Part shown: positions 18,886 through 37,459 of the stretch, one piece after another | Position numbering within the stretch: position 1 is the stretch's first letter | How the letters are laid out: every line of letters begins with the position of its first letter | Origin: Myxococcota bacterium | GTDB lineage: Bacteria; Myxococcota_A; UBA796; CAJQPC01 | Reading direction: 5' to 3' | DNA: 64,000 nucleotides | Assembly (NCBI GenBank): GCA_023150845.1 | Contig: JAKLKD010000007.1 | Span: forward strand, 1 to 64,000 | Notes under the pieces: generated by a model | The model's database searches: none | Told to the model about the DNA's origin: nothing | What the model saw: only the letters and a program-made list of their open reading frames with translations | Translations under genes and position numbers: made by a program

Positions 18886-20376
18886 TCACTGCGGGCGGGC
18901 CTGGGTGTTCCCCGCGGCGTCGGCGGCGGGGGCGGCGGCGGCGGGGGCGGCGCGGCTAAAGAGCGAGACGTAGTTCCAGGCGCCGGACATCTGGGTGTCG
19001 GTGATGCTGTCGGACTCGCCCCGGGACTCGTTCGCCGCCGGATCCTGGGCCCGGCGCACACGCCAGTCGTCATCGACGCCGTCCGCGTCTGTGTCGTTCG
19101 CGCTCACGCGGTTGCGGTAGGCCGAGGCGCCGCGGGTGCTGCCGACGTCGGCGTAGGCGTCGCCGGTCTGATCGCGGCGGTAGGTGGCGCGCATCCCGCC
19201 GTACGGGTCATCGATCACGATCCCGTCGTTGGTGACCTGCTGCACGGTGACGATGTGGGTGCCCGACTGCCCGCGGCCCTTGTGGAAGAGGCTGAGCATC
19301 ACCGCGCCGCCGGCCTCCAGGGTGGTCTTCATGCGCTCCTTCACCACGGGCCAGGTGTTCGCCCCGCCGCGCTGCAGCGTCTCTTGGGTGGGGCGCTCGG
19401 CGGCGGTGGGCTCCACACGGTTGAGGAGCGTCCCGGCGTTGCCGGTGATCGAGGTGCGGGAGATGCCCAGGAGGCTCATCAAGAACGCGACCACGTCCTC
19501 CATCTGGGCGTCGGCCTGGAAGGTCTCGGCCATGTTCGCGCGCTGGGCGTTCGTGGTGCTGCCGCCGCGCAGGCGCTGGTAACCCGAGCCCGCGTTGTTC
19601 TCGTTGTCCAAGAAGGTGCGCACCCGGCGCTCCCACTCGCCCTCGGGGAGCTCAATCTGGGAGAGATCCTCACGCGCCGGGTCGCGGCGCTGGCTGCGCA
19701 GCCAGGCCTTCTTGAGCTCGGTCTCTACGGCGGCCACCACGTCCGCGCGGCTGTAGCCGAGGCGCTCCAGCACCATCGCGAAGGAGGTGACGTTGCAGGT
19801 GGCTTCAGGGGAGGTGAGGTTGTCGGACTGGGTGCGGTACTGGGGCACGCCGAGGCGGGAGTTCCAGTCATCGGCGCTGTGCTGGCTGCCCTCGACCTGG
19901 GTGCCTGTGCCCGCCGTGGCGTCGGCGACGCCGACCTCCAGGGTGCGGATGAGCGCGCGCACCGAGGGGATGAGCTCCGGCGGCACGAAGCCGCGCACCT
20001 GGGAGGCCGTGCCCGTGCCCTCGCTCGTCGGCGCGGTGTCCAGCGTGGTGAGGTCGGGCACCGTCCCGGCGGCGAGCTGCGAGGAGACCGTCTCGACCTG
20101 CATCAGCAGGCCCTCGACCCGGCGGGCCTTGGTGTCGCCGGTCAGCTCGGCGATCTCCGTGGTGCGCGTCTGCAAGAAGGTGCGGTACCCGGCGATGAAC
20201 TGCTGCCGGGGCGTCTGCTGGGCCTGGCCGTCCGCCGCCGGGGCGGCGCCGTTCTCGCCGCGAAGCTGGGCCTGGGCCTGGGCGTTCGACTGACCCCCCT
20301 GCTGCGGCGCCTGGGCGTCTACGCGGGTGTCGGTCTGCTGGGCGGGGGTGGCCTGACGCTGGGCTCTGCCGGACAT
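18886..20376 (-). CDS. C39-like papain-fold cysteine peptidase with low-complexity N-terminus
   Basis: 496 residues from the ATG at 20376 (GGAG eight bases upstream). The first 55 residues are Gln/Ala-rich and disordered, with no signal peptide. A helical region follows to about 165. The catalytic domain begins WNSRLGVPQYRTQSDN, with Cys194 in EATCNVTSFAM, His374 in SGTHIVTV and Asp389/390 in VIDDPYGG: the Cys-His-Asp order of Peptidase_C39-type domains. The tail carries an Asp-rich calcium-loop-like segment (NDTDADGVDDDW). The lack of a signal peptide leaves open export by a specialised route. Substrate unknown. Confidence 0.75.
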   Translation of the reverse strand: MSGRAQRQATPAQQTDTRVDAQAPQQGGQSNAQAQAQLRGENGAAPAADGQAQQTPRQQFIAGYRTFLQTRTTEIAELTGDTKARRVEGLLMQVETVSSQLAAGTVPDLTTLDTAPTSEGTGTASQVRGFVPPELIPSVRALIRTLEVGVADATAGTGTQVEGSQHSADDWNSRLGVPQYRTQSDNLTSPEATCNVTSFAMVLERLGYSRADVVAAVETELKKAWLRSQRRDPAREDLSQIELPEGEWERRVRTFLDNENNAGSGYQRLRGGSTTNAQRANMAETFQADAQMEDVVAFLMSLLGISRTSITGNAGTLLNRVEPTAAERPTQETLQRGGANTWPVVKERMKTTLEAGGAVMLSLFHKGRGQSGTHIVTVQQVTNDGIVIDDPYGGMRATYRRDQTGDAYADVGSTRGASAYRNRVSANDTDADGVDDDWRVRRAQDPAANESRGESDSITDTQMSGAWNYVSLFSRAAPAAAAPAADAAGNTQARPQ

Positions 20377-20458
20377 CGAAGCGCTCCGAGGCGTGTCTTG
20401 CGGGAGGGTGTGCACACTACGCTACCGCAAGCGCTGAGAACGTCAAGCGTTAAGTTCT

Positions 20459-20474: not shown

Positions 20475-20525
20475 CTCAACGCAGGGCGGTGACTTCAATA
20501 ATTCCCCAAGGGGAGGAGGCCCGCC

Positions 20526-21569
20526 TCAGGGCAGGTGAATCCGGTACACGTTGCCCTCCTCGGTGCCCACATAGAGCGCGGGCGGCTTGATGGCGGCGGC
20601 CAAGGCGCTCGCGCGCTCGCCTTGGGGCCAAGGCAGCGGCGTGGCGGGCCCACCGGCGAAGTCGCGGGACTGTAGCTCAACGCGGGTGATCTCGCCGGGG
20701 GCCTCGCCGTCGGCGACCAGGGCCCACAGGGCGGTGGGGGACGACCACGCCACGGCGCGCACAAACGCGGGCACCTCCTCACGCTCCTCCCCGTCGAGGG
20801 ACAACACACGGACGCGGCTAGGGTCGAGGCGGTCGTGGGCGGCGAGGTGCTGGCCGTCGGGCGCGGGGCGGGGCGGAAAATAGCCCTCTTCGCTGAGACG
20901 GGCCTGGTTGAGCTCGTTCACATCAGGGCCGAGGCCCTCCGACGCCGGGGGCGTCTGACCGTCCCAGGTGTAGAGCACCCCGTCGGCGACGAGGCGTAAG
21001 GTGCCCTCGCGGGGGCCGGGCAGCACGAGGCTCAGCTCGGCGTCGGGCAGGGGCGGGCCGCCAAGAGGGTCCCCCTCGGCGCTCCAGGCCCCGCCCGCGC
21101 CGCCGAACCAGCGCCCGCCGGGGGCCCAGCGGAGCTCCGGGTCGCCGCCCTCGATGAGAGAGAGCGCGCCCGAGGGCGAGAGGAGCTGGGCCGGGGCGTC
21201 GGGCCCGAAGCCCAGCAGCAGGGCCGCGCCGTCGGCGCCAAGCCGCACAGACCAGCGCGGCGGGGAGCCCGCGCAGCAGGGGTCACGGTACTCCCAGCGC
21301 GTCTCACCGTCGCGCAGATCGATGAGGGTGTAGGCCAAGGGCTCGCCGCCGCCCTCCCGCGCGACGAACAAGAAGCGCCCGTCCTCCGAGACCTCCAGGC
21401 GCCGGATGGGGTGTGGGGCCGAGGACACCGGCCGCTGCACCGGGCGCAGGGGGACAGGGCGCATCGCGCCGGGCTCATGCTCATCGAGCAGCTCGTCCAG
21501 GGCGTACTTCATCGGGGCTCCGCAGGCGGTGAGGAGGAGGAGGGCGAGGAGGGCGCGAGGCGCGTTCAT
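20526..21569 (-). CDS. Beta-propeller-like lipoprotein
   Basis: 347 residues from the ATG at 21569. The N-terminal lipoprotein signal (ALLALLLLTACGAP, Cys about residue 16) anchors it to a membrane. The body shows repeated WD40/TolB-like strands: IRRLEVSEDGRFLFVAREGG, WSVRLGADGAALLLGF, LRWAPGGRWF, VRAVAWSSPTALWALVADG, LYVGTEEGNVYRIHLP. It is therefore probably a propeller used for binding rather than catalysis. It is divergent from the lipoprotein array that starts at 21854. No further assignment is possible. Confidence 0.82.
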   Translation of the reverse strand: MNAPRALLALLLLTACGAPMKYALDELLDEHEPGAMRPVPLRPVQRPVSSAPHPIRRLEVSEDGRFLFVAREGGGEPLAYTLIDLRDGETRWEYRDPCCAGSPPRWSVRLGADGAALLLGFGPDAPAQLLSPSGALSLIEGGDPELRWAPGGRWFGGAGGAWSAEGDPLGGPPLPDAELSLVLPGPREGTLRLVADGVLYTWDGQTPPASEGLGPDVNELNQARLSEEGYFPPRPAPDGQHLAAHDRLDPSRVRVLSLDGEEREEVPAFVRAVAWSSPTALWALVADGEAPGEITRVELQSRDFAGGPATPLPWPQGERASALAAAIKPPALYVGTEEGNVYRIHLP

Positions 21570-21708
21570 CCCCCAAGGGTACACCCGGGCGGGGGTGGAG
21601 GGGAGGGGGGAGGCTCAACTCCGCGCCCAAACGAGGTCTCGGCGCCCGTGGGGGCCCCCTCACGCCCCCAAAGCGCCGCGACGAGCGCGCGCCCGCCGAG
21701 AGGTCCGG

Positions 21709-21736
21709 CTATAAATGACATATTTGTCATTTATAG
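21709..21736. promoter_or_regulatory. 28-bp AT-rich palindrome upstream of the lipoprotein array
   Basis: The left arm CTATAAATGACA (21709-21720) and right arm TGTCATTTATAG (21725-21736) are perfect reverse complements around the loop TATT. It lies 117 bp before the first array gene, in DNA that is otherwise very GC-rich. Its size and symmetry suit a dimeric regulator site. TATAAA within it could also serve as a -10 element. Confidence 0.55.
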
Positions 21737-21853
21737 AGAGTGCCTCGGGACGGGATCGCCGAGACGAGCTCCATCTCTTGCCCCTCGCGCCAATTCTTAT
21801 GCTACGCTGCCCAGAACCCTTTGCTGAGCGTGTCCGCCGATGGAGAGTCTCCG

Positions 21854-22300
21854 ATGAGCCGCCGATTCGAGCCGAGCCAGCGCCCCACGAGCGGTGACCG
21901 CCGAGGGTGGGTCGCCCTGGGCTTGCTCTCGGCGGCGGCCTGCGCGCCCACTCCAGAGCTTGGCGAGGGCTTCGTGCCCGCGATGAGCTTCGCGGCAGCC
22001 GCTCAGAACTGCGCGGCGCTGCAGGCGGTGAGCGAGCCGCTCTGCGGAGAGGAGACGTTCCCGGTTCACTGTTGGTGGGCGTCGTCTTACGAAGATGCTG
22101 CGGCCTTTCGGTCAGTCACGGAACGGCCTGCCTTCACCTGCGACGCCGGGATTGGGGTCGCGTTACGGAGTGCATTGGAGCAACGAGTGAGTTGTGAAAT
22201 TGACGAGGATCTCATCATCGCGTCAATTCAATGCAGCCCATTAGACACAGGAGGTGAGTCCACCTGTGCGCCAACATTTTCCTGCTTCGGTGTGCGATGA
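21854..22300 (+). CDS. Array lipoprotein A1 (8-Cys family A)
   Basis: 148 residues; first gene of the alternating array. I chose the ATG at 21854, behind ggagagtctccg, because it opens a signal peptide that ends LLSAAACAP (lipobox Cys). The mature part has eight further cysteines in the pattern NC, PLC, VHC, FTC, SC, QC, TC, SC, with the conserved core CGEETFPVHCWW near residue 70-80. No catalytic motif is present, so a small disulfide-stabilised envelope protein is most likely. Its stop overlaps the start of B1 (ATGA, 22297-22300). About 100 bp of its 5' mature region is nearly identical to A2, which indicates duplication. Function unknown. Confidence 0.88.
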   Translation: MSRRFEPSQRPTSGDRRGWVALGLLSAAACAPTPELGEGFVPAMSFAAAAQNCAALQAVSEPLCGEETFPVHCWWASSYEDAAAFRSVTERPAFTCDAGIGVALRSALEQRVSCEIDEDLIIASIQCSPLDTGGESTCAPTFSCFGVR

Positions 22301-22722
22301 GGCAAAAGAACACGTCTCAGGGGCTGATCTCAGACACAAAACATTCGGCTATCCTCTTGCTCACGATGCTCGGCTCGGTGTTGGGCGGATGTCAGGAGTA
22401 CAACATCCCCCACATTGAGCTCTCAGAGGACGCAGAGCACGCAGCTTACAACTGCGACGTGCTGGCGCTAGCCTCGGACTGGGATTGTTCACCGGAGGAT
22501 CGTGTGATCCCGCTGAGCTGTAGCTGGGGAGACAAAGACCGCTCAGGAGCCGTGACCATAGAAGGCAGCACAGGCTGCGTCACGATGACTTGCGCGGAGG
22601 TGCTCTATCGGGCGGAGAACGAGTGCACCTACGACCAAAACGGAGAGACCGTCCTCCACGACAACACCACCGCCGAGTGCTGCACCGCCGACGATTGCGG
22701 CGTGGAGTTCGGATGTTACTGA
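22297..22722 (+). CDS. Array lipoprotein B1 (10-Cys family B)
   Basis: 141 residues. A lipoprotein signal ends LGSVLGGC. The mature region carries ten more cysteines: YNC, DC, LSC, TGC, TC, EC, the adjacent pair ECC, DDC and the terminal FGCY. The C-terminal motif ECCTADDCGVEFGCY is identical in all four family B proteins here, so it is under strong constraint or gene conversion. The core EDRVIPLSCSWGDKD corresponds in position to EETFPVHCWW of family A. It overlaps A1 by four bases and A2 by ten (22713-22722). Confidence 0.88.
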   Translation: MRQKNTSQGLISDTKHSAILLLTMLGSVLGGCQEYNIPHIELSEDAEHAAYNCDVLALASDWDCSPEDRVIPLSCSWGDKDRSGAVTIEGSTGCVTMTCAEVLYRAENECTYDQNGETVLHDNTTAECCTADDCGVEFGCY

Positions 22723-22762
22723 ACCACCCTCTGCCCTTGGCGCTTTTCGGTGGCCTGCTCTC
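22667..22762 (+). repeat. 96-bp perfect direct repeat, copy 1 (pairs with 24340-24435)
   Basis: It spans the conserved B1 C-terminus, the B1/A2 overlap and the A2 signal peptide. It is identical base for base to 24340-24435 at the B3/truncated-A4 junction. Confidence 0.9.
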
Positions 22763-23135
22763 AGCGTTGGGCTGCGCGCCCACTCCAGAGCTTGGCGAGG
22801 GCTTCGTCCCAGCGTTCAGCTTCGCGGCGGCGGCTCAGAACTGCGCGGCGCTGCAGGCCGTGAGCGAGCCAATCTGCGGGGAGGAGACGTTCCCGGTTCA
22901 CTGCTGGTGGTCGGACTCATCTGACGAATACACTCTGGCTCGCGGGTATACGGAAAAACCAGCCCACACCTGCGACGAAGGGATTGACGCAGCCTTAGAG
23001 ATCGCGAGCTCGCAGGAGGTACGGTGTGAGCTCGATTACGATGCCCTGACCAACTCCTCAACCCAGTGCAGCTACGGTGACACGGGAGGAGATGTCTACT
23101 GTGCCCCAACACTCCTCTGTTTTGGTGTACGATGA
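22713..23135 (+). CDS. Array lipoprotein A2 (family A)
   Basis: 140 residues. The ATG at 22713 sits inside the last codons of B1 (the GGATGTTACTGA context), a ten-base overlap repeated at every B-to-A junction except the last. The signal peptide MLLNHPLPLALFGGLLSALGC ends in a lipobox. The mature part keeps all eight family A cysteines (NC, PIC, VHC, HTC, RC, QC, YC, LC) and the motif CGEETFPVHCWW. It shares PTPELGEGFVPA and NCAALQAVSEP with A1 and diverges in the second half. It overlaps B2 by ATGA. Confidence 0.88.
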   Translation: MLLNHPLPLALFGGLLSALGCAPTPELGEGFVPAFSFAAAAQNCAALQAVSEPICGEETFPVHCWWSDSSDEYTLARGYTEKPAHTCDEGIDAALEIASSQEVRCELDYDALTNSSTQCSYGDTGGDVYCAPTLLCFGVR

Positions 23136-23557
23136 GGCCCGTTCGCACGTTTTCTGCTCCAGTGGAAGTCAAGCCCAAGTCGGCAGGCGCACTGCTCCTC
23201 GTCTTCTGCTGTGTGCTCAGCGGATGCCAGACGTACAACGTCCCTCATATCCAGCGATCCAGGGATGCAGAGCACGCGGCCTACAACTGTGAGGTGATAG
23301 CGTTGGCGTCGGAGTGGAGCTGCCTGCCTGAAGAGCGAGTGATCCCGATAAGCTGTAGCTGGGGTGACGCAGACGTCTTCGGCGCGGTGACCATCGAGGG
23401 CAGCACGGGCTGCGTCACGGTGACCTGTGAGGATGTGCTCACGCGGGCTGAGATTGATTGCTTGAACGACGATGACGGCGAGCCAGTCCTCCGCGACAAC
23501 CCCGCCGATGAGTGCTGCACCGCCGACGACTGCGGCGTGGAGTTCGGATGTTACTGA
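23132..23557 (+). CDS. Array lipoprotein B2 (family B)
   Basis: 141 residues. The lipoprotein signal ends CCVLSGC. The mature sequence is closest to B1 (QTYNVPHI against QEYNIPHI, DAEHAAYNC, TIEGSTGCVT) and keeps the ten-Cys pattern and the invariant ECCTADDCGVEFGCY tail. Substitutions concentrate between about residues 95 and 125. It is coupled to A2 (ATGA at 23132) and to A3 (ten-base overlap, 23548-23557). Confidence 0.88.
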   Translation: MRPVRTFSAPVEVKPKSAGALLLVFCCVLSGCQTYNVPHIQRSRDAEHAAYNCEVIALASEWSCLPEERVIPISCSWGDADVFGAVTIEGSTGCVTVTCEDVLTRAEIDCLNDDDGEPVLRDNPADECCTADDCGVEFGCY

Positions 23558-23973
23558 ACCAACCTCTGCGCTTAGCGCTTCTGGTGGGCCTGCTCTCAGC
23601 GTTGGGCTGCGCGCCCAAGGATACCGACGTTGGCTTTGTCGCCTCAAGCAGCCTCTTCTCAGGCGCCCAGAACTGCATTATGCTTGAGACTATAAGCGTC
23701 GATGTCTGCGCTGGTGAGACCTTCCCGATCCACTGCATCTGGGGAGAGAGCTTCGGCAGATTCGATGGCGCAGGAGGGATCAGCGCGACCTCAGCGCAGA
23801 CCTGTGACGCTGCGTTGGCGCGTGCGGTGCAATTGGCCGCCGAAGAAGGCCTTCTATGTGAGGTCGTGGAGGGCCGTGTCATTGTGTATGAGATTCAATG
23901 TACAGATGAAGACACGGGTGACTCAGGCGCGATGGACAACTGTAGCCCCCTTTGGGTCTGTTCGAACTTATGA
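23548..23973 (+). CDS. Array lipoprotein A3 (family A)
   Basis: 141 residues. The signal peptide (MLLNQPLRLALLVGLLSALGC) is close to that of A2, while the mature part is more divergent (PKDTDVGFVASSSLFSGAQNC). All eight cysteines are retained (NC, VC, IHC, TC, LC, QC, NC, VC), with CAGETFPIHCIW in place of CGEETFPVHCWW. This combination of a conserved signal with a diverged mature domain fits diversifying duplication. It overlaps B3 by ATGA (23970-23973). Confidence 0.88.
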   Translation: MLLNQPLRLALLVGLLSALGCAPKDTDVGFVASSSLFSGAQNCIMLETISVDVCAGETFPIHCIWGESFGRFDGAGGISATSAQTCDAALARAVQLAAEEGLLCEVVEGRVIVYEIQCTDEDTGDSGAMDNCSPLWVCSNL

Positions 23974-24395
23974 ACACCTCCTTCATTCATCTGACCGGGA
24001 CAGTCCGTCCTCATAAGCTCTCGTCTGGTGGCGTCTTGCTGCTGGTGATCACAAGCGTAGCCTGTGCCCCTGAGGATGAGCTTGAGCTCACGCGCTCCCG
24101 CAACGCCGAGGACGCCGCCTACAACTGCGAGCTGCTGGCGATGGCCTCGGACTGGTACTGCCTGCCTGAAGACCGGGTGATCCCGCTGAGCTGTGGCTGG
24201 GGGCAAAAGGATCTTGGCGGCAGCGTGACCATTGAAGGCAACACGGGCTGCGTCACGACGACCTGTGAAGTTGTGCTAGATTTGGTAGAGCGGGACTGCT
24301 TCTACAACCAGAATGGCGAATTCATCCTTCGTGGCGATCCCACCGCCGAGTGCTGCACCGCCGACGATTGCGGCGTGGAGTTCGGATGTTACTGA
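23970..24395 (+). CDS. Array lipoprotein B3 (family B)
   Basis: 141 residues from the ATG at 23970; an upstream GTG at 23952 in the same frame is less likely because the ATGA overlap fits the array pattern. The signal peptide ends ITSVAC. The mature part reads RNAEDAAYNCELLAMASDWYC, closer to B4 than to B1, then the common GCVTTTC and ECCTADDCGVEFGCY. All ten cysteines are present. It ends in the 96-bp repeat shared with B1/A2. Confidence 0.88.
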   Translation: MNTSFIHLTGTVRPHKLSSGGVLLLVITSVACAPEDELELTRSRNAEDAAYNCELLAMASDWYCLPEDRVIPLSCGWGQKDLGGSVTIEGNTGCVTTTCEVVLDLVERDCFYNQNGEFILRGDPTAECCTADDCGVEFGCY

Positions 24396-24435
24396 ACCAC
24401 CCTCTGCCCTTGGCGCTTTTCGGTGGCCTGCTCTC
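24340..24435 (+). repeat. 96-bp perfect direct repeat, copy 2 (pairs with 22667-22762)
   Basis: Identical to 22667-22762; it ends inside the signal peptide of the deleted A copy, just where A2 continues into its mature domain. Confidence 0.9.
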
Positions 24436-24520
24436 GGCGCAGCCCGCACACTGTGAGGAGGGCGACACAGCTCAGGGCCCAGAGTGTGATCTGCAATTTT
24501 ACTGTGGCCGAACCTGGTGA
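24386..24520 (+). pseudogene. Internally deleted family A gene (A4 remnant, 44 codons)
   Basis: An open frame too short for usual gene callers. It starts like A2 (MLLNHPLPLALFGGLLSA), then jumps to QPAHCEEGDTAQGPECDLQFYCGRTW. The second part matches the last three-Cys segment of family A proteins (QC-SYGDTGGDVYC-APTLLC in A2), so about 95 central residues have been lost. The lipobox cysteine is gone. Reading frame and the overlap architecture are kept: a ten-base overlap with B3 and a GTGA overlap with the next gene. It may still be translated and keep downstream coupling intact. Confidence 0.7.
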
Positions 24521-24957
24521 GACCTCTAATGCTGAACAGCGCGAGAGCACCTACCTCATCGGACCGCTCACGATGCGGGTTGACCAAACTGGGTCTGCTC
24601 CTGCTCGCGAGTTGTGTGCCCGAGGACGCAACACCTCGCCTCGTCGCGGCAGACAGTTTTCTGGACGCCGCGCACAACTGTGAGGTGTTGGAGACCCTCA
24701 GCGAATCGATGTGTGGTGACGAGACATACACGGTCTACTGCGAGTGGGTGTATGATGGTCTTGGTGGCGGTGCTGGGGTTACGACCCAACATCCTGCGAC
24801 CACCTGCAACGAGGCGCTCTCTGCCGCCCGTGAGCAAGCCGATCACCTTCGGTGCAGAGTCCGCAACTCCGACGGTGACTTTCCGCCGTTGTGTGAGGAC
24901 CAAGACACAGGCATCTCCTACTATTGTGAACGAATACTTTACTGCCAAAAGCGGTAA
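24517..24957 (+). CDS. Array lipoprotein A5 (family A, divergent)
   Basis: 146 residues from the GTG at 24517, which overlaps the stop of the A4 remnant (GTGA); an ATG four codons later is also possible. The lipoprotein signal ends LLLASC. The mature region VPEDATPRLVAADSFLDAAHNC resembles A3 in layout, and eight cysteines are kept (NC, MC, YC, TC, RC, LC, YC, YC). The core is CGDETYTVYCEW. It is the most divergent family A member and the only one not overlapping the next gene (14 bp gap to B4). Confidence 0.85.
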   Translation: MRPLMLNSARAPTSSDRSRCGLTKLGLLLLASCVPEDATPRLVAADSFLDAAHNCEVLETLSESMCGDETYTVYCEWVYDGLGGGAGVTTQHPATTCNEALSAAREQADHLRCRVRNSDGDFPPLCEDQDTGISYYCERILYCQKR

Positions 24958-24971
24958 GGAGCTCCAAGACG

Positions 24972-25352
24972 ATGTCGATGAACCCAGCTCCCCTCCTGCT
25001 CACGCTGCTCGGCCTGCTCAGCGCGTGCGACGATGGCCCCGAGGTGGTGCGCGCCCACAACGCTGAAGACGCCGCGCTCAACTGCGAGCTGCTGGCGATG
25101 GCCTCAGACTGGTACTGTCTGCCTGAAGAACGAACGATCCCGCTGAGCTGTAGCTGGGGCGACACGAATTTTAACGGCTCGGCGACTATCGAGGGCCGGA
25201 CGGGATGCGTCACGATGACCTGTGATATCGTGATTCGGTGGGCTGAGGAGGAGTGCCTCTACGAGCAGAACGGTAGGACGGCGCTTCTAGATAACGCCAC
25301 GGAAGAATGCTGCACCGCCGACGATTGCGGCGTAGAGTTCGGCTGCTACTGA
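24972..25352 (+). CDS. Array lipoprotein B4 (family B, last gene)
   Basis: 126 residues. The ATG at 24972 follows an RBS (aaggag), the only array gene after A1 with its own clear site; an ATG two codons on is possible. The signal is short (LLLTLLGLLSAC). The mature sequence AHNAEDAALNCELLAMASDWYCLPEERTIPLSC is very close to B3, and the ten-Cys pattern and ECCTADDCGVEFGCY tail are intact. Its stop lies within the last codons of the converging iadA-like gene (7-bp overlap). Confidence 0.88.
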   Translation: MSMNPAPLLLTLLGLLSACDDGPEVVRAHNAEDAALNCELLAMASDWYCLPEERTIPLSCSWGDTNFNGSATIEGRTGCVTMTCDIVIRWAEEECLYEQNGRTALLDNATEECCTADDCGVEFGCY

Positions 25353-26515
25353 CCCCCACCCCTCCCAAACAGATCCCCCACGACCGCCCGCCCCTCACGC
25401 ACCAGCCAGCGCCCCCCGGCGATCACGCCCCAAACGGTGAGCTCCGGGGTGAGCAGGGTGACGTCGGCGTCGAGTCCTGGGGCGAGCTGGCCTTTTTGAC
25501 GTAGGCGGAACAGCGCGGCGGGGTTGGCGGTGCAGGTGGCCAAGGCGCGCTGAAAGGGCACGCCCAGGGCGGTGGCCTCTCGCAGGGCGTCGAGGAGCCC
25601 CCTGGCGTCGCCGACGCCCATGCCGAGGAGCTCACCGTCGGGGGAGAAGCGGGGCAGGCAGCCGCCGCCGTCGCTGGACATCGTGAGCCGGGCCGGGGGC
25701 AGGCCGCCGAGGAGCCACTCCGCCAGGGCCTCCCCGGCGCTGGGCTCGTCGCCTTCTTTGGGGAAGGCGGTGACGTCGATGGTGAGGCCTAACGGCGCGC
25801 AGTCTTTGGCCTCCTCCCACAGGCGCCGGTTGCGGTTGCAATGGGTGGGGTGGAAGACGCGCGGCGGCAGCTCGGAGACGGCGAGGGCCTCGCGCACGAG
25901 GCTGAGCCCCCGGGGGCCGTCGCCGAGGTGCAGATGAACGAGCCCGGCCTTGCCGGTCATCAAACCGGAGACGTGGGCGTCGGCGGCGACGCGCAGGAGC
26001 TCGTGCAGGGTGGGCTGGGCGCTTCTGTGGTCGGAGATCGCCAGCTCCCCGACGGCGACCATTCGATCGACGTGCACGAGATCGCCGCGCACCGAGCCGG
26101 TCAAGGTCGGCGGTGGCACCTCGTAGCCGCCGGTGTAGGTGAGCGCGGTGAGGCCGTAGTGGGCGAGGCCCCGGGCGCTGGCGAGCAGCTCGGCCAAGGA
26201 GCGTGTGGTGCCGTCGGTGCCCAAGAGCCCGATGGCGGTGGTGACCCCGGCGCGGGTGAGCTGCTCCACAAACAAGGGCGGCACCCGGGTGTGCGCCCCG
26301 CCCTCGCCGCCGCCGCCGGTCATGTGCGTGTGGGTGTCCACGAGGCCGGGCACCACGAGGAGGCCCTGCACGTCCACCTCCTCGACGGGCCAGCCCGAAG
26401 GCGCGTCGCTGAGGCCGTCGCCGAGGGCGGCGATGTGTCCCCCCGCGAGCAAGAGGTCGCCGCGCCCCCGAGGCTCAGGGTCGTAGAGGTCGCCGCCGCG
26501 CAGGAGGGTGATCAT
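25346..26515 (-). CDS. iadA: Isoaspartyl dipeptidase (beta-aspartyl peptidase)
   Basis: 389 residues from the ATG at 26515 (MITLLRGGDLYDPEPRG), matching the 390-residue E. coli enzyme. It is an amidohydrolase with the metal motif VDTHTHMTGGGGEGG, the substrate loop YTGGYEVPPPTLTGSVRGDL, the ISDHRSAQP block, HPTHCNRN and the catalytic Asp in TMSSDGGG. The family cleaves isoaspartyl dipeptides left by protein damage. One oddity: the carboxylated bridging Lys of the E. coli protein (VKCAISDHRS) aligns with Glu here (GELAISDHRS). It stands alone between the lipoprotein array and the ATPase operon. Confidence 0.92.
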   Translation of the reverse strand: MITLLRGGDLYDPEPRGRGDLLLAGGHIAALGDGLSDAPSGWPVEEVDVQGLLVVPGLVDTHTHMTGGGGEGGAHTRVPPLFVEQLTRAGVTTAIGLLGTDGTTRSLAELLASARGLAHYGLTALTYTGGYEVPPPTLTGSVRGDLVHVDRMVAVGELAISDHRSAQPTLHELLRVAADAHVSGLMTGKAGLVHLHLGDGPRGLSLVREALAVSELPPRVFHPTHCNRNRRLWEEAKDCAPLGLTIDVTAFPKEGDEPSAGEALAEWLLGGLPPARLTMSSDGGGCLPRFSPDGELLGMGVGDARGLLDALREATALGVPFQRALATCTANPAALFRLRQKGQLAPGLDADVTLLTPELTVWGVIAGGRWLVREGRAVVGDLFGRGGGQ

Positions 26516-26648
26516 CGGGAGGTCCGGGGTGAGGGGCGCGCTGAAGGTAATGGGCGGCGGGCTCGGGGGCGAGGGTGCGCAGCGCGGGAGGGGGTGATAA
26601 AACCGCAGGAGCAGCCCGCGCCTCCGCGCGGCGAACCCCGGTGAGAGC

Positions 26649-27749
26649 ATGATCACGCGCCTCTACGTCGACAACGTCGGTCCCCTGGTCAACTTCGAGT
26701 GGCGGCCTGGGCGGCTGAACCTGTTGTTGGGGGAGAATGGGAGTGGGAAGTCGTTTGTGTTGCGCGTGATGGGCGCCGCTCGGTTTCTGTTGGGTGGGGT
26801 GGATTATGAGAGCAAGGCGCCCCCTGACAACCGGACCCGGTGGGACAGCAGAAGAGAGCAGACTCGTGAGCTTGATGTCGTCATCGAGGGGCAACAGTAT
26901 TCGTATTCGGTGATGTTTGATCACGCCGAGGACGATGGGCGGTGGAGACGATGGGTGGTCAAGGAGCGCCTGAGCGTGGATGGCATGCCGCTCTCACAGA
27001 TGGAGGGTGACAAGCTGACCATCTTCGCGGACGATGGAGGTGCGGCTACCACGCTCCCCGTGAGCGTCACACGGTCTGGTGTAGGAATTATTCCGCCCAG
27101 CCACGAATACAAACGTCTCACGCGCTTCAAGACCTGGATGCGTAAAGGATTGCACTCTTTCGCGCCGATCCCCCAGATGATGGCCGCGGAGGTTAAGGGC
27201 TCGCCCGAACATCCAGACCACATCCTGAGTGACTTCGCCTCATGGTACGCCTCCTGGTTGCCAAGAAACATCGGTCCTGCGATGCGCGCCCAGAAGGCCA
27301 TCGCTGAGATCATCCCTGGCTTTGAGTCCCTCCAGGTGAGCCCCAACGGCGTGAAGCTTCAGGCCACCTTTCATGCACACAAAGGAACGCCCGCGCACAG
27401 CATCGACTTCAATCATCTCTCCGACGGCCAACGCCAGCTCTGCGCCCTCTACGTCCTGCGCCACGCCTACATCCAGCCGGGGCACACCTTCCTCATCGAC
27501 GAGCCCACCAACTTCGTCTCTCTCCGCGAGATTCAGCCCTGGCTGAACGAGGTCATCGACGCCACCGACGTGCCGAACGGCCCCCAAGTCTTCATCGTGA
27601 GCCATCACCCGGAGATCATCGACCAGCTCGCGCCGCAGCACGGCGTGCAGTTCTTCCGCGACGGCGGCCCCACACGCATCGCCCCGTTCAAGGGCGCTCC
27701 GGCGCTCACGGCCTCGGAGACCGTCGCCCGTGGGTGGGGCGATGAGTGA
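26649..27749 (+). CDS. AAA/ABC-type ATPase (AAA15/21-like), first paralogue of a putative defence operon
   Basis: 366 residues. SMC/OLD-like ATPase core: Walker A LGENGSGKS (Lys34), ABC signature LSDGQRQ (257-263), Walker B FLIDEPTNF (Asp284, Glu285) and switch region IVSHHPE (His319-320). The insertion between the Walker motifs (about 50-230) is specific and contains no nuclease motif. No TOPRIM domain is fused to it; the next gene supplies one. It overlaps that gene by eight bases. The first half has clearly lower G+C and different codon use from the surrounding genes, suggesting horizontal transfer. Related ATPases act as phage sensors or regulators in defence systems; that role here is inference. 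Confidence 0.85.
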   Translation: MITRLYVDNVGPLVNFEWRPGRLNLLLGENGSGKSFVLRVMGAARFLLGGVDYESKAPPDNRTRWDSRREQTRELDVVIEGQQYSYSVMFDHAEDDGRWRRWVVKERLSVDGMPLSQMEGDKLTIFADDGGAATTLPVSVTRSGVGIIPPSHEYKRLTRFKTWMRKGLHSFAPIPQMMAAEVKGSPEHPDHILSDFASWYASWLPRNIGPAMRAQKAIAEIIPGFESLQVSPNGVKLQATFHAHKGTPAHSIDFNHLSDGQRQLCALYVLRHAYIQPGHTFLIDEPTNFVSLREIQPWLNEVIDATDVPNGPQVFIVSHHPEIIDQLAPQHGVQFFRDGGPTRIAPFKGAPALTASETVARGWGDE

Positions 27750-28329
27750 TGGGGTTCAGTGGATCCTCTTGGGCGAAGACAAACAGGCGGTCACGTTCTT
27801 GCGGCGCCTTGTCGTCGCCATGGGCGCGAACGCCCGGCGGGTGATCGAGCTCCCCGTCGCGGCGACCACTACGGGCGCCTGCGGCTCTCAGTACGTCGTA
27901 GCCCGCTACGCCAGGGAGCTCCCCGCGTTTCGGGCCAACGCGGCGCGAATGAGCACGAAGCTCCTGGTCCACATCGACGCTGACGATCGCACAGTCCTCC
28001 AGCGCCAGCGAGAGCTCGCCCAGGCCTGCGCTGACGCGGGCCTGCCTCCACGCGGGCCCAACGAGGCCATCGCGCTCCTCATCCCCAAACGAAACTTGGA
28101 GACCTGGATCGCCTCCTTGGACCCCAGCCAGCATGACGCCCAGCGCGGCGCCGACCCCACCCAACCTCTGGAGGAGCGAGTGTTTAGGCACCTCACGGAG
28201 GAGAGCGGCTGCTCCGGCGCCGTCGAGGCCCTGGCCCGCCACCTCAGATCCCGCGCCCCCGCCCCGCTCATCCCCGACCTGCCCTCCTTAGACGAGGCCG
28301 TCGTCGAGCTCCGCCGGGTCTGGCCCTGA
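27742..28329 (+). CDS. Small TOPRIM-like protein, putative nuclease effector
   Basis: 195 residues from the ATG at 27742, inside the end of the first ATPase gene. The N-terminus WILLGEDKQAVTFL has the conserved Glu12 of a TOPRIM fold, and KLLVHIDADD gives the Asp79-x-Asp81 metal pair. A later IPKRNLETWI resembles the segment found after the DxD in DUF4276/DUF4435-type TOPRIM proteins, but I cannot fix the family. TOPRIM domains cut nucleic acids in OLD/Gabija-type and PARIS-type defence. The overlap with the upstream ATPase and a 3-bp gap to the second ATPase imply fixed stoichiometry or a complex. Confidence 0.65.
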   Translation: MSDGVQWILLGEDKQAVTFLRRLVVAMGANARRVIELPVAATTTGACGSQYVVARYARELPAFRANAARMSTKLLVHIDADDRTVLQRQRELAQACADAGLPPRGPNEAIALLIPKRNLETWIASLDPSQHDAQRGADPTQPLEERVFRHLTEESGCSGAVEALARHLRSRAPAPLIPDLPSLDEAVVELRRVWP

Positions 28330-28332
28330 GCC

Positions 28333-29322
28333 ATGCTCACCCGCGTCCTCCAGCAGAACATCGGCCCCTTCTTGCACAACGAGCGCCGTCTCGGCCCCCT
28401 CACGCTCATCCACGGCGAGGCCGGCAGCGGCAAGACCTCCATCGTCGGCGTGGCGAACACGCTGTGGGCCTTCTGTTTTCGCCCCTCCGACCTCACGGCC
28501 AAGGTGCCCCTGGACTCGGTGACCCGGTGGAGCGGCCTCACCGCCCAGCGCCGAGAGATCGACGTGTCGCTCAACGGGGCGACCTTCACCCACGTCTGCG
28601 TCACCGAGAACGACGAGACGACGGGGCGCCGCCGCCGCTGGTTCGCGGAGGAGACGCTGAGCGTTGACGGCGTGCCCCTGCTCCGCCGCGAGGGTGACAC
28701 CCTGCATGTCCTCGCCGACGACGACGGCCCGGCCTCGCGCCTCCCCGCCCACCCCGGCCTCTCCGCCTTGACCCTCACCCCGCCCGAGCACCGCCGCGCC
28801 TGGACCTACCTCACCTGGCTGCGGGACCGGCTCTTCGTCTTCGCGCCGCTGCCCCACGTCATCGGCGCGAGCGTTCCACTCGACACAGTCCGACCGGCCC
28901 GGCCCAAGGAGGAGTGTGAAGACTTCGCGCCCTGGTTCGCCGGGTGGAGCGCCGCAAACCCCGCCGAGGCCCAGGCCCTGAACCTGGCCCTGCCGGGGAT
29001 CTTGCCCGGCGCCGTGGCCCTTGAGGTGGCGGGGGAGCGGCTCGTGGTGCGGTTTGGGGCCCGCGGGGAGCGCCCGGGCTTTGTGCTGGGCTTCGACCGC
29101 CTCTCCGACGGGGAGCGGCAGCGGGTCGTGCTGGAGGCCCTGGCGCTGGCGTTCTTGCGCCCCGGCGTGACGACGCTCTGGGACGAGCCCGAGCGCTTCT
29201 TGTCGGCCCGGGACGTGGGCCCCTGGATTGACCGGGCGCTCGCGGCGGCGGCGGCGCCGGGGGGGCCCCAGGTCGTGTGGGCGAGCCAACACCCCGAGGT
29301 GGCGCGGCGGCTCCCTCGCTGA
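28333..29322 (+). CDS. AAA/ABC-type ATPase, second paralogue of the putative defence operon
   Basis: 329 residues, collinear with the 26649-27749 protein over its whole length: Walker A HGEAGSGKT again has Lys34, the signature LSDGERQ again starts at 257, and Walker B TTLWDEPERF again has Asp284 and Glu285. Shared blocks outside the ATPase motifs include TRW near 64, LSVDG near 110 and PLPHVIG/PIPQMMA near 173. The switch region is WASQHPE: the first His of the paralogue's SHH is Gln here, so its ATPase cycle may be impaired. G+C is higher than in the first paralogue. A heterodimer with the first ATPase is the simplest reading. Confidence 0.83.
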   Translation: MLTRVLQQNIGPFLHNERRLGPLTLIHGEAGSGKTSIVGVANTLWAFCFRPSDLTAKVPLDSVTRWSGLTAQRREIDVSLNGATFTHVCVTENDETTGRRRRWFAEETLSVDGVPLLRREGDTLHVLADDDGPASRLPAHPGLSALTLTPPEHRRAWTYLTWLRDRLFVFAPLPHVIGASVPLDTVRPARPKEECEDFAPWFAGWSAANPAEAQALNLALPGILPGAVALEVAGERLVVRFGARGERPGFVLGFDRLSDGERQRVVLEALALAFLRPGVTTLWDEPERFLSARDVGPWIDRALAAAAAPGGPQVVWASQHPEVARRLPR

Positions 29323-29412
29323 TCACGGTCGCTGATTGGGCGACGGGGGTCGCGGCGGGGGAGGCTTGGGGCTACACTTCAGGGGCACCCCCTCTCTCCA
29401 GGATGAGACCCC

Positions 29413-32412
29413 ATGCTCCTGCTCTCGCTGCTGGCGCCCACGGCGCTCGCGCAGTCCCTGCACTACCAAGGCAACATCCAAGGCGGTATGGCCATCGACG
29501 GCTCCGGCGTGTCGACGGCGTACTCCGGCACGACGACGCTCTACACCGGCGACACGCTGGACATCACCATCCCCTCCACCGCGACGGTGAAGGAGGTCTG
29601 GGCCGTCGTCACCGCGAAGTCTTCGGGCTTTAACGGCGACCCGGCCACCACCACGGTCATCAACGGCGTGTACCTCAGCTCGGCCACCTACGTCTCGGCC
29701 AGCGGCCAGCACCGCGTCTACAAGCTCGACCCGACCACCTTCGGCATCACGAAGGCCGGCAGCTACTCCTACCAAGAGCAGGACAAGGCCGACTCGGGCT
29801 ACAACAGCGGCGCGGGCACCGTCGGCACCACCCTGGCCGTCATCTACGAGGACAAGACGCTCTCGGGTTACCGCCACGTCGTCTTCGGCAGCTACTACAC
29901 GCTCAACGGCTCGTGGACGATCACCGGCCTGCCCACGACCACCTCGGGCGACAAGGTGCTGTTCTCGCAGACCATCGGCTGGGAGTGCTCGGACGAGCAA
30001 GACGGCACGATGACCATCGGCAGCACGGTCACCACGAGCTACGCCGGGGGCCGCGACGACGGAAAAAACTTCACGACGAGCTGCGGCAGCCAGGACTGGA
30101 ACTCGCTGTTCACCGCGGGCAGCTTCGGGATCAACGACAGCGACGAGCTCATTGGCGTCGACGGCGATGAGCCCGACAGCGAGCCCTCCACGGGCACCTC
30201 CAACAACTCCTACCGCTCCGATGAGCTCTGGCGGGTGACCTACAGCGAGTCGGGCTCCTTGGCTGTGAAGTACGGCAAGAGCGACAGCGACGGCTACACC
30301 AGCGCCTTCGGCCTCGTCATCGACCTGGAGACCGACGGCGACGGCGTCAACAACGACGACGACAACTGCCCAGACGTGTCCAACGCCGACCAGGCCGACG
30401 CGGATGGTGACGGTGACGGCGACGCCTGCGACACCTGCACCGACGTTGACGGCGACGGCTACGGCGACGGCAGCTACAGCGCGTCCACCTGCACCGACGA
30501 CTGTGACGACGACGACGCGACGGTCTACCCCGGCGCCTCCGACGCCTGGTATGACGGCGTAGACGCCAACTGTGACGGGGCCAACGACTACGACCGCGAC
30601 GGCGACGGCACCACCTCGTCGAGCTACGGCGGCACGGACTGCAACGACAACAACGCCTCGATCAACACCTCGGCGACGGAGACCTACTACGACGGCGTCG
30701 ATGGCAACTGTGACGGGAAGTCGGATTACGACAAGGACGGCGACGGCACAGACTCGTCGAGCTACGGCGGCACGGACTGCAACGACAACAACGCCTCGAT
30801 CAACACCTCGGCGACGGAGACCTACTACGACGGCGTCGACGCCAACTGTGACGGCGAGTCGGACTACGACCGAGACGGCGACGGCACGGACTCGTCGAGC
30901 TACGGCGGCTCGGACTGTGACGACAACAACGCGACGATCAACACCTCGGCGACGGAGACCTACTACGACGGCGTCGATGGCGACTGTGACGGCGGGTCGG
31001 ACTACGACGCCGACGGTGACGGCCAAGACAGCGACGGCTACGGCGGCCTCGACTGTGACGACGCCGACGGCGGCGTGTACGACGGCGCCGGGGAGACCTG
31101 GTACAACGGCGTAGACGACAACTGCGACGGCGGCTCGGACTACGACCAGGACGGCGACTCCTACGACAGCAGCGACTACGGCGGCGACGACTGTGACGAC
31201 TCCTTGGACTCGGTCTACCCCGGCGCCACGGAGCTGTCCGACGGCCTCGACAACGACTGTGACGGCGTGAACGAGGTCACCGACAGCGACGGCGACGGCG
31301 TGACCGATGAGGCCGAGCAGGACCTCGGCACCGACCCCGCCCTCGCCGACACAGACGGCGACGGCCTCGACGACGGTGACGAGCTCGACCTGAGCACCGA
31401 CCCCCTCGATGAGGACACCGACGAGGACGGCGTCAACGACGGCGACGAGGTGGTCGGCGGCACGGACCCCCTCGATGAGGACAGCGACGATGACGGCGCC
31501 ACGGACGGCGTCGAGGTGGACGTCGGCACCGACCCGCTCGACGCCGACAGCGACGACGACGGCCTGAGCGACGGCGACGAGCTCAACACCCACGGCACCG
31601 ACCCCTTGGATGAGGACAGCGACAGCGACGGCCTCACCGACGCCGAGGAGCTCAACACCTACGGCACGGATCCCAACGACTCCGACACCGACGACGGCGG
31701 CGTGATCGACGGCGTGGAGATCCTGCTCGACGGGACCGACCCGCTCAACGGCGAGGACGACATCTACGACACCCGCGACACCGACGCCGACGGCCTCACC
31801 GACAAGGAAGAGTTTGTGCTCGGCACGGACCCCGAGGACGCCGACAGCGACGACGACGGGCTCAGCGACGGCGACGAGGTGCTCGTCCACGACACCGACC
31901 CGCTCGACGCCGACCAGGACGACGACGGGCTGAGCGACGGTGATGAGGTGGCGCTCAGCACGGATCCGAAGGACGCCGACAGCGACGACGACGGCCTGGG
32001 CGACGGCGAGGAGGTCAACGACCTCGGCACGGACCCCGTGGTCGCGGACACCGACGGCGACGGCCTGAGCGACGGCGACGAGGTGAACACCACCCAGACC
32101 GACCCGCTGCTCTCCGACAGCGACAGCGACGGCCTGAGCGACGGCGACGAGCTCAACACCCACGGCACCGACCCGCTTGACGCCGACAGCGACGACGGCG
32201 GCGTGACCGACGGTGAGGAGCTGGAGAACGGCACCGACCCCCTCGACGGCGCCGATGATGTGCCCGTCGAGGACACCGACGACCCCGTTGACACCGGCAT
32301 GATCAAGGGCGGCGGCGGCTGTGAGTGCTCCACGAGCTCCGCCCCGGCCCCTGTGGGCCTCGCCGGGCTCTTGGGCCTCCTCGGCGCGATGTGGGCGCGC
32401 CGCCGCCGCTAA
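29413..32412 (+). CDS. Secreted calcium-binding repeat protein with MYXO-CTERM anchor
   Basis: 999 residues. A signal peptide (LLLSLLAPTALA) is followed by a globular N-terminal domain to about 310. Then come MopE-like units of the type DCxDxxxxxxxxAxExxYDGVDxNCDG (about 340-620), including three 46-residue copies that are nearly identical. About fourteen thrombospondin type 3-like repeats (SDDDGLSDGDELNTHGTDPLD) run to about 950. The end is GGGGCECSTSSAP, a hydrophobic helix and RRRR, the MYXO-CTERM arrangement for lipid or protease-dependent surface anchoring in Myxococcota. The extreme Asp content predicts folding only in Ca2+. It is likely a surface or adhesion protein. Confidence 0.92.
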   Translation: MLLLSLLAPTALAQSLHYQGNIQGGMAIDGSGVSTAYSGTTTLYTGDTLDITIPSTATVKEVWAVVTAKSSGFNGDPATTTVINGVYLSSATYVSASGQHRVYKLDPTTFGITKAGSYSYQEQDKADSGYNSGAGTVGTTLAVIYEDKTLSGYRHVVFGSYYTLNGSWTITGLPTTTSGDKVLFSQTIGWECSDEQDGTMTIGSTVTTSYAGGRDDGKNFTTSCGSQDWNSLFTAGSFGINDSDELIGVDGDEPDSEPSTGTSNNSYRSDELWRVTYSESGSLAVKYGKSDSDGYTSAFGLVIDLETDGDGVNNDDDNCPDVSNADQADADGDGDGDACDTCTDVDGDGYGDGSYSASTCTDDCDDDDATVYPGASDAWYDGVDANCDGANDYDRDGDGTTSSSYGGTDCNDNNASINTSATETYYDGVDGNCDGKSDYDKDGDGTDSSSYGGTDCNDNNASINTSATETYYDGVDANCDGESDYDRDGDGTDSSSYGGSDCDDNNATINTSATETYYDGVDGDCDGGSDYDADGDGQDSDGYGGLDCDDADGGVYDGAGETWYNGVDDNCDGGSDYDQDGDSYDSSDYGGDDCDDSLDSVYPGATELSDGLDNDCDGVNEVTDSDGDGVTDEAEQDLGTDPALADTDGDGLDDGDELDLSTDPLDEDTDEDGVNDGDEVVGGTDPLDEDSDDDGATDGVEVDVGTDPLDADSDDDGLSDGDELNTHGTDPLDEDSDSDGLTDAEELNTYGTDPNDSDTDDGGVIDGVEILLDGTDPLNGEDDIYDTRDTDADGLTDKEEFVLGTDPEDADSDDDGLSDGDEVLVHDTDPLDADQDDDGLSDGDEVALSTDPKDADSDDDGLGDGEEVNDLGTDPVVADTDGDGLSDGDEVNTTQTDPLLSDSDSDGLSDGDELNTHGTDPLDADSDDGGVTDGEELENGTDPLDGADDVPVEDTDDPVDTGMIKGGGGCECSTSSAPAPVGLAGLLGLLGAMWARRRR
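30592..31005 (+). repeat. Three 138-bp in-frame tandem repeats
   Basis: Units start at 30592, 30730 and 30868, each encoding 46 residues with the core SSSYGGTDCNDNNASINTSATETYYDGVD. Near-identity at the DNA level marks recent expansion within the calcium-binding protein gene. Confidence 0.85.
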
Positions 32413-35647: not shown

Positions 35648-37459
35648 GTGAATCGACGCCTCGCCGCCGCCTGCGCCCTCGGGATGGCCTGCGCCGGTCG
35701 GGACACCGCCGAGCCCACCTGGCCCGCGAGGGCCGTCGCCGTCACCGGGATCACCCTCATCGGGCCGGAGGGGGCGCGGCCTGACGTGCGCCTTGTGCTC
35801 GCGGAGGGCCGGGTGCTCGCGGCGCTGGGGCCCGAGGAGCCGGCCTTGCCCGGCTGGATGCCCCAGGAGGCCCGCCCCGGGCGCTTCGTGATCCCCGGCC
35901 TCATCGACCGCCACGTTCACATCAGCCACAGCGGCGCGACGGTCTGGGTCGGCGACACCTTGGCTGACAACCTCCGGGCGACGCTCTCCTGGGGGGTGGT
36001 CGGCGTGGCGGACCTCGGCGGGCCGCTCTGGCTCACGGACCTGAGGGACGCCATCGACGCCGGGGCGCTGTTGGGCCCACGCCTCGCCGTGAGCGGGCCG
36101 ATGCTCACCGCCGAGGGCTCCCACCCCTGCGAGACCACCTACGATCGTTCGCTCTGCGTGTTTGTGGACGGCGACGGCGCGGCGCAGGCCGATGCGCTCC
36201 TCGACGCCGGGGTGGACCAGGTCAAGGTGGCGCTCCAGGACGCGGACTTCTCCCCCTGGCCGACCCCTCGCCTCGACCTCGGCGACCTCGCCGCCATCTG
36301 CGCGGCGGGCCCCGCCGTGGTGCACATCGGCGACGGTGAGGACGCCGCGGACGCCTTGGCCGCGGGCTGCGGCGCCTTGGCGCATACCCCCTTCGGCGGC
36401 CCCTTGAGCGCGGCTGAGGCGGCCTTGCCCTTCGCTGAGCTGCACAGCACGGTCTCGGCCCTCGCCGGGGTGCCCCGGATCGTGCTCGACGGTGACGACC
36501 TCAGCGGGCCCCGCTACGCCGCCGTGCCCGAGGCCGTGCTCCAGAATTGGCGGGCGCTCCAAGAGGAGCCTCACTTGCTCTTGGACGGCTTCGCGGAGGA
36601 GAGCGCGGGCTGGGCGGCGCAGGCCCAGGCGAACCTCGGGGCCTTGGTCGCCGCCGACGCCCCGGTCCTCGCGGGCTCCGACGCTGGGTATTACCTCGTG
36701 CCCCACGGCGCCGCGCTCCACGACGAGCTCCTGGCCTTGGTCTCCGCCGGGATGAGCCCCCACGAGGCCCTGATGGCCGCCACCCGAGACGCGGCCCTGG
36801 CCTTGGGCTGGACGGACCTCGGCGTGCTCGCCCCCGGCGCCCGGGCGAGCTTCTTGGTCTTGGGCTGTGACCCCCTGGCCGACCTCGGCTGCGCCCAAGA
36901 CATCGAGGAGCTCTGGCTCGACGGTGTGGCCTGGACCCCAGCCGCGCTCCGGGAGGCGCCGCTGGTGCTCGATCCCGGCGGCCTCGGCGGGCTTTGCCTC
37001 ACCACGGCGGACTGCGGCGAAGGGGAGGCCTGCGATCGGGTGCAGCACGCCTGCGTCGCCGCCTGTGGCACCCCCTACGACGACCCGCGGGCCTGCGACA
37101 TGTCGAGCTTCTGCGCGCCGTCCGATGGCCTCGCCAGCACCGAGGAGGGCGCCTGCCTGCCCGCGGACGCCTGCGACTGGCGGGCCCAGGACTGCGGCCC
37201 CTCGACCTACGCCCAGACCTGCCTGCCGATGGACCTCGACACCAGCACCTGCTGGCCGGCCGGGCTCCGGGGCCAAGGGGAGACCTGCTCGGCGTCGGAC
37301 CCCTCGGCGCGCTGCGAGGAGGGCCACTACTGCTCGCCGGTCTCTGGGGTCTGCCTCCAGCTCTGCGACCCCGACGGGAGCGGCGACCCCTGCGCCGTGG
37401 GGCGCTGCCGTCAGGTCTACGCCTCGGAGGGCTCGCCCTGGTTCGGGCTGTGCTGGTGA
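35648..37459 (+). CDS. Amidohydrolase-family lipoprotein with Cys-rich C-terminus
   Basis: 603 residues from a GTG at 35648, behind aaggag. A short lipoprotein signal ends CALGMACAG. Residues about 30-440 form an amidohydrolase (TIM-barrel) domain: FVIPGLIDRHVHISHSG (metal HxH), a VDQVKVALQD strand with a candidate bridging Lys, VVHIGDG, and LAGSDAGYYLVPHG with the catalytic Asp. The final about 150 residues contain 20 or so cysteines in CxxxxC-type repeats, typical of secreted myxobacterial proteins. Substrate not predictable. Its end overlaps the converging acyl-CoA dehydrogenase-like gene by 43 bp. Confidence 0.85.
   Translation: MNRRLAAACALGMACAGRDTAEPTWPARAVAVTGITLIGPEGARPDVRLVLAEGRVLAALGPEEPALPGWMPQEARPGRFVIPGLIDRHVHISHSGATVWVGDTLADNLRATLSWGVVGVADLGGPLWLTDLRDAIDAGALLGPRLAVSGPMLTAEGSHPCETTYDRSLCVFVDGDGAAQADALLDAGVDQVKVALQDADFSPWPTPRLDLGDLAAICAAGPAVVHIGDGEDAADALAAGCGALAHTPFGGPLSAAEAALPFAELHSTVSALAGVPRIVLDGDDLSGPRYAAVPEAVLQNWRALQEEPHLLLDGFAEESAGWAAQAQANLGALVAADAPVLAGSDAGYYLVPHGAALHDELLALVSAGMSPHEALMAATRDAALALGWTDLGVLAPGARASFLVLGCDPLADLGCAQDIEELWLDGVAWTPAALREAPLVLDPGGLGGLCLTTADCGEGEACDRVQHACVAACGTPYDDPRACDMSSFCAPSDGLASTEEGACLPADACDWRAQDCGPSTYAQTCLPMDLDTSTCWPAGLRGQGETCSASDPSARCEEGHYCSPVSGVCLQLCDPDGSGDPCAVGRCRQVYASEGSPWFGLCW

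Follow-up and report, generated by a model that had tools for sequence, protein, structure and literature searches.

An accessory tandem array of alternating, homologous lipoprotein genes in a Myxococcota bacterium

In the lpl cluster of the nuSa-alpha island of Staphylococcus aureus, each gene carries variable and conserved stretches, an organization thought to favour shuffling, duplication and diversification (PMC4470592). Within the Myxococcota, the SitA protein of Myxococcus xanthus is an outer-membrane lipoprotein; the small accessory cassettes that encode it contain genes that overlap. The C-terminal toxin domains of SitA are unrelated between alleles, immunity comes from a separate protein, SitI, and SitB bears a type I signal (PMC5562445). 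Here we describe an array of lipoprotein genes on contig JAKLKD010000007.1 of assembly GCA_023150845.1; the stretch analysed, hereafter the window, comprises 64,000 nucleotides. We tentatively read the array as a lineage-specific accessory operon of variable cell-envelope lipoproteins that grew by unit duplication and recombination.

Like lpl, the locus consists of tandem paralogous lipoprotein genes on an accessory island. Unlike lpl, which belongs to a Gram-positive host and has no sequence relation to the array by Pfam and NCBIfam profile scans, it alternates between two disulfide-rich subfamilies (A and B), neither of which features is described for lpl in PMC4470592. The array resembles M. 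xanthus SitBAI in its phylum, its lipoprotein products, its small overlapping accessory operon and its presence or absence between strains. It differs from SitBAI in that both partners are small Cys-rich lipoproteins homologous to each other, with no C-terminal toxin (nuclease) domain, and in that no separate immunity protein (e.g. of the SUKH family) lies directly downstream, B being homologous to A. By analogy, the lpl tandem arrays appear to be the closest of the known systems in behaviour, and the general characters of a tandem paralogous lipoprotein array were all found (head-to-tail paralogues, an accessory locus and signs of recombination). The features of the locus are as follows.

21709-21736, no strand: perfect 12-bp inverted repeat, CTATAAATGACA-TATT-TGTCATTTATAG, AT-rich, upstream of A1; candidate operator
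21854-22300, plus strand: A1, 8-Cys lipoprotein, 148 aa
22297-22722, plus strand: B1, 10-Cys lipoprotein, 141 aa; 4-base overlap with A1
22713-23135, plus strand: A2, 8-Cys lipoprotein, 140 aa; 10-base overlap with B1
23132-23557, plus strand: B2, 10-Cys lipoprotein, 141 aa
23548-23973, plus strand: A3, 8-Cys lipoprotein, 141 aa
23970-24395, plus strand: B3, 10-Cys lipoprotein, 141 aa
24386-24520, plus strand: A remnant, 44 aa; A-type signal peptide joined to the C-terminal Cys stretch of the A domain
24529-24957, plus strand: A5, 8-Cys lipoprotein-like, 142 aa; alternative GTG start at 24517
24972-25352, plus strand: B4, 10-Cys lipoprotein, 126 aa; own AAGGAG site, no overlap, stops at the insert boundary

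The initial annotation had described nine consecutive genes of about 141 residues each, joined by constant overlaps. The array is real, but the open reading frames of the window resolve it into eight intact genes, in the order A1-B1-A2-B2-A3-B3-A5-B4, plus one A remnant whose middle and lipobox are gone. The length holds for six of the eight intact proteins, the exceptions being A1 and B4, and the cysteine counts (eight in A, ten in B) hold in the mature part of every intact copy. Three A-to-B junctions (A1/B1, A2/B2 and A3/B3) share a 4-base ATGA overlap, and three B-to-A junctions (B1/A2, B2/A3 and B3/A remnant) share a 10-base overlap (ATGTTACTGA). The overlaps are constant at these six junctions, but the last pair breaks the rule, with A5 and B4 separated by 14 bases. 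The A5 leader resembles that of A1 rather than those of A2 and A3 (z 4.2 for the A1 type); a B-type leader left after a deletion was rejected, z being at most 2.0 for any B.

A GGAG Shine-Dalgarno-like stretch lies in the last codons of B, as in B1 before A2, five bases ahead of the A start. In B4, which has no A downstream, the overlapping ATG is gone, and its last codons show four silent and zero amino-acid changes. This silent loss fits an A start codon that is kept only where it is used. Taken together, the placement of GGAG and the change in B4 suggest that the 10-base B-A overlap is also used.

The prediction that the array proteins are lipoproteins is well supported. They carry a type II signal by sequence pattern (a hydrophobic leader followed by a lipobox Cys), and a PS51257-like lipoprotein pattern was matched by seven of the eight intact proteins. 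A lipoprotein signal in every intact member, as originally claimed, is accordingly borne out for seven, with A5 borderline: it has a LASC lipobox, but its hydrophobic stretch is short, with a Lys inside the pattern. A2 and B4 have no Lys or Arg in their first 20 residues. In enterobacteria, Asp at position +2 causes inner-membrane retention. This residue is found in B4 and in the related protein C (see below), and most array members are without it.

Along the array, direct repeats (300 and 127 bases) return in register at spacings of 835, 838 and 957, a regularity beyond chance that supports repeated duplication of an A-B unit. The B1|A2 and B3|A remnant junctions have 96 identical bases in common, a length of tract that could mislead assembly within the array (the assembly has 444 contigs). 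A 162-base tract is 90% identical between A1 and A2, which diverge beyond it. Such patchiness would be expected if units had recombined or undergone conversion near the B-A junctions, which form the most homogenised part of the array. The overlaps had been taken as evidence of selection for stoichiometry. They are copies of one ancestral junction, inherited with the unit and lying in a homogenised stretch; because they were copied, their identity is not independent evidence, and this argument is not supported. On the sequence evidence, an A and a B gene came together as a unit that was then copied in tandem; the copies diversified, were homogenised in patches and underwent at least one internal deletion.

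A and B had been regarded as two separate families. Our comparisons showed instead a single homologous family with a common cysteine framework: hhalign of the four A against the four B proteins gave an E-value of 2.3e-7, and in six-frame genome searches the B profile picked up A5 at 5e-5 and the A profile picked up B4 at 1.8e-7. Their alignment has in common an NC motif, S, C, E, C-x-W, TC and later cysteines, and B has two extra cysteines. A third subfamily, C, is present in one copy in the same genome (G000:C396 31791-32207, in L015/L046) and once in the nearest relative (G069:C822, in L010), at syntenic loci. C is a predicted lipoprotein with 23-29% identity to A and B, and its eight mature cysteines align with those of A. 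A, B and C were separate in a tree, with modest support for A and B. These analyses establish an orphan family of predicted disulfide-rich domains that exists as three subfamilies, A, B and C.

The family was convincingly present in 2 of 379 genomes of the phylum. Weak hits in the phylum outside the genus (E 7.6e-5 to 0.04) were taken as chance; they were short, two ran across stop codons, and the others lay in larger frames. The annotation had proposed that A and B partner each other. In the profile search of Myxococcota genomes, array A and B are together in one genome, and a lone C is present in two. A mostly solitary occurrence of homologues, which would speak against pairing, was likewise half observed, in that the only homologue outside the array is the single, unpaired C.

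These results bear on whether A and B form an obligate heterodimer, with one variant per unit and a ratio fixed by the overlaps. The strict A/B alternation, the homology of A and B and the overlaps, which permit translational coupling, are consistent with such a structural pair, as is the loss of the overlapping ATG from B4, where no A follows. However, C stands alone, so the domain needs no partner gene beside it, and the overlaps were inherited by copying. We consider the heterodimer possible but doubtful. It seems improbable that obligate A-B pairs on the outer membrane serve as a recognition system in which each unit is one specificity and array content is strain identity.

In both genomes, C is the last of three same-strand genes, the first for a metalloprotease predicted to be secreted (motif HEVGHYLGLFH) and the second for a small lipoprotein.

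L046 6792-9180, minus strand: run of metalloprotease, small lipoprotein and C
L010 1267-3149, minus strand: the corresponding run in the nearest relative

Between the two genomes, C has 67% amino-acid identity, versus 86-87% for its neighbours, and a dS of 1.05, versus 0.4-0.6. The divergence is mostly in the second half of C, where synonymous sites are near saturation, a split into halves like that between the array copies. GC3 is low in all three subfamilies (0.65-0.78, against about 0.9 in neighbouring genes).

The location of C behind the protease in both genomes, together with the small, acidic, disulfide-rich nature of the domains, would suit extracellular enzyme inhibitors or ligand binders, that is, disulfide-braced lipoproteins diversified over several targets such as proteases. 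This role is unlikely, as no such protease adjoins the A/B array, and in two other families of the order three genomes carry a homologue of the protease with no C-like gene seen beside it. The latter observation also speaks against C as a conserved partner of the metalloprotease.

The array is part of an insert (21615-25355, 3741 bp) that contains the whole array plus its upstream region, and 71 unrelated bases occupy the same site in the nearest relative, 'Myxococcota bacterium MAG.430' (G069), a metagenome-assembled genome of the same genus that agrees with the Myxococcota host presumed earlier. In a blastn comparison of the window with G069:C222, the matches at 20525-21614 (95%) and 25356-31076 (90%) were 71 bp apart in the relative. 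The genes on either side of the array have 97-98% protein identity to their counterparts, which have the same order and orientation and lie 100 bases apart there. Profile searches of the G069 genome found no A or B anywhere. A chimeric contig was ruled out, since synteny resumes on both sides of the insert. The empty site between flanks of 90-95% DNA identity upholds the view of a variable accessory locus. The two-genome comparison is compatible with gain here as well as with loss in the relative, and in this genus sample of two genomes copy-number variation is visible only as presence or absence.

The GC content of the insert is 61% (0.609), versus about 72-75% in the flanks. The syntenic C gene also has 61% GC, so low GC characterises the family and does not by itself prove transfer; as evidence of recent transfer it was thereby weakened. 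The 12-bp palindrome upstream of A1 is the only perfect one of its size in the window, is unique in its own genome and is absent from G069; it may be an operator. Searches for terminators, sigma-70 promoters, tRNAs and Rfam elements in and beside the array yielded none of note.

Scans of the array proteins against Pfam, NCBIfam, PHROGs and PADLOC gave nothing above chance, and searches of the PDB by sequence and by fold, and of viral structures, gave no match, in keeping with the initial statement that no known domain is visible. No relative was detected in viral contigs and plasmids (A and B queries) or in genome contigs (B query), in pattern-based scans that reach only fairly close relatives. 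In the A2 model (helix-sheet-helix-strand), a core at residues 31-60 and 81-100 is predicted with confidence (pLDDT above 90), and no solved structure in the PDB resembled it. The B model was too poor to serve as a query (mean pLDDT 49). No paper on the A/B/C family was found in the library searched.

A toxin-immunity function had been among the roles first suggested. In a SitA-like polymorphic system, A or B would be a toxin delivered via TraA/TraB outer-membrane exchange, and its partner would provide the immunity; the Myxococcota host, the paired overlapping lipoprotein genes and the patchy, low-GC accessory locus are compatible with this. However, A and B are homologous, share their Cys framework and both carry lipoprotein signals, and Pfam, NCBIfam and PADLOC gave no toxin or immunity profile hits. 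Moreover, the mature domains have only about 100 residues, and their variation comes from point changes and mosaicism rather than from the exchange of whole domains. These scans revealed no toxin domain or separate immunity protein, and B is a homologue of A with a lipoprotein signal of its own; membership in SitA-type cassettes is not supported, and we give this reading little credence.

Between copies, dS is about 0.7 at its lowest and reaches saturation, and dN/dS lies at about 0.2-0.45, with one A pair unscorable because its dS is saturated. The dN/dS check along the copies, suggested at the outset, thus points to purifying selection on old copies that are real coding genes, and the average, below 1, gives no sign of positive selection. 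Non-adaptive expansion, meaning a tandem duplication that is neutral or decaying within its accessory insert and has no lasting function, would account for the remnant copy and the array missing from the relative, but it is very improbable because about half or more of the synonymous sites differ and yet open frames, all cysteines and dN/dS of about 0.2-0.45 are kept, which needs long selection.

The reading that we tentatively prefer remains an accessory operon, specific to the lineage, that encodes variable envelope lipoproteins. Transcription of the operon would start from one promoter ahead of A1, which the palindrome may control, and most downstream genes would be translated by coupling via the overlaps. 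The products would be exported and lipidated, and most are predicted to be sorted to the outer membrane because they are without Asp at +2, although the lipoproteins may face the periplasm rather than the surface. A and B would display related disulfide-braced domains with a variable second half. Their role would most likely be that of a diversified envelope set used when the cell meets other cells, competitors or phages, and a role in cell-cell recognition is possible. The array would be kept as an accessory trait with quick turnover.

The locus adds to the Myxococcota an orphan disulfide-rich lipoprotein family without a recognised fold. It is also a clean case in which two subfamilies alternate along a tandem array, the corresponding site is empty in a relative, and a cousin gene is single-copy and diverges fast. 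Should A and B turn out to form a recognition unit, array content would allow strain identity to be tested directly; if not, the locus still documents how tandem lipoprotein arrays of Gram-negative bacteria grow, recombine, come and go.

Several other features of the neighbourhood were observed. Before the insert, a 509-aa protein with a Peptidase_C39-like stretch is encoded on the minus strand (18886-20415). Past the insert, just beyond an amidohydrolase, an AAA_21 ATPase (PADLOC best match AriA, E 5e-17; also HEC-01A) is overlapped by a 199-aa weak HEC-01B match (26649-28329, plus strand), making a candidate PARIS/HEC-01-like defence pair. A second AAA protein follows it at 28333-29322, and this region is also present in G069. 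A further amidohydrolase-like frame, followed by a Cys-rich tail, lies at 35648-37459 (plus strand). Long D-x-D-x-D-G repeat proteins are encoded in the window (29413-32412, plus strand) and in L046 (11462-14338, minus strand). They carry Gly-Gly-Cys plus a hydrophobic, Arg-rich end that resembles MYXO-CTERM, and their repeats cross-matched many times in blastn.
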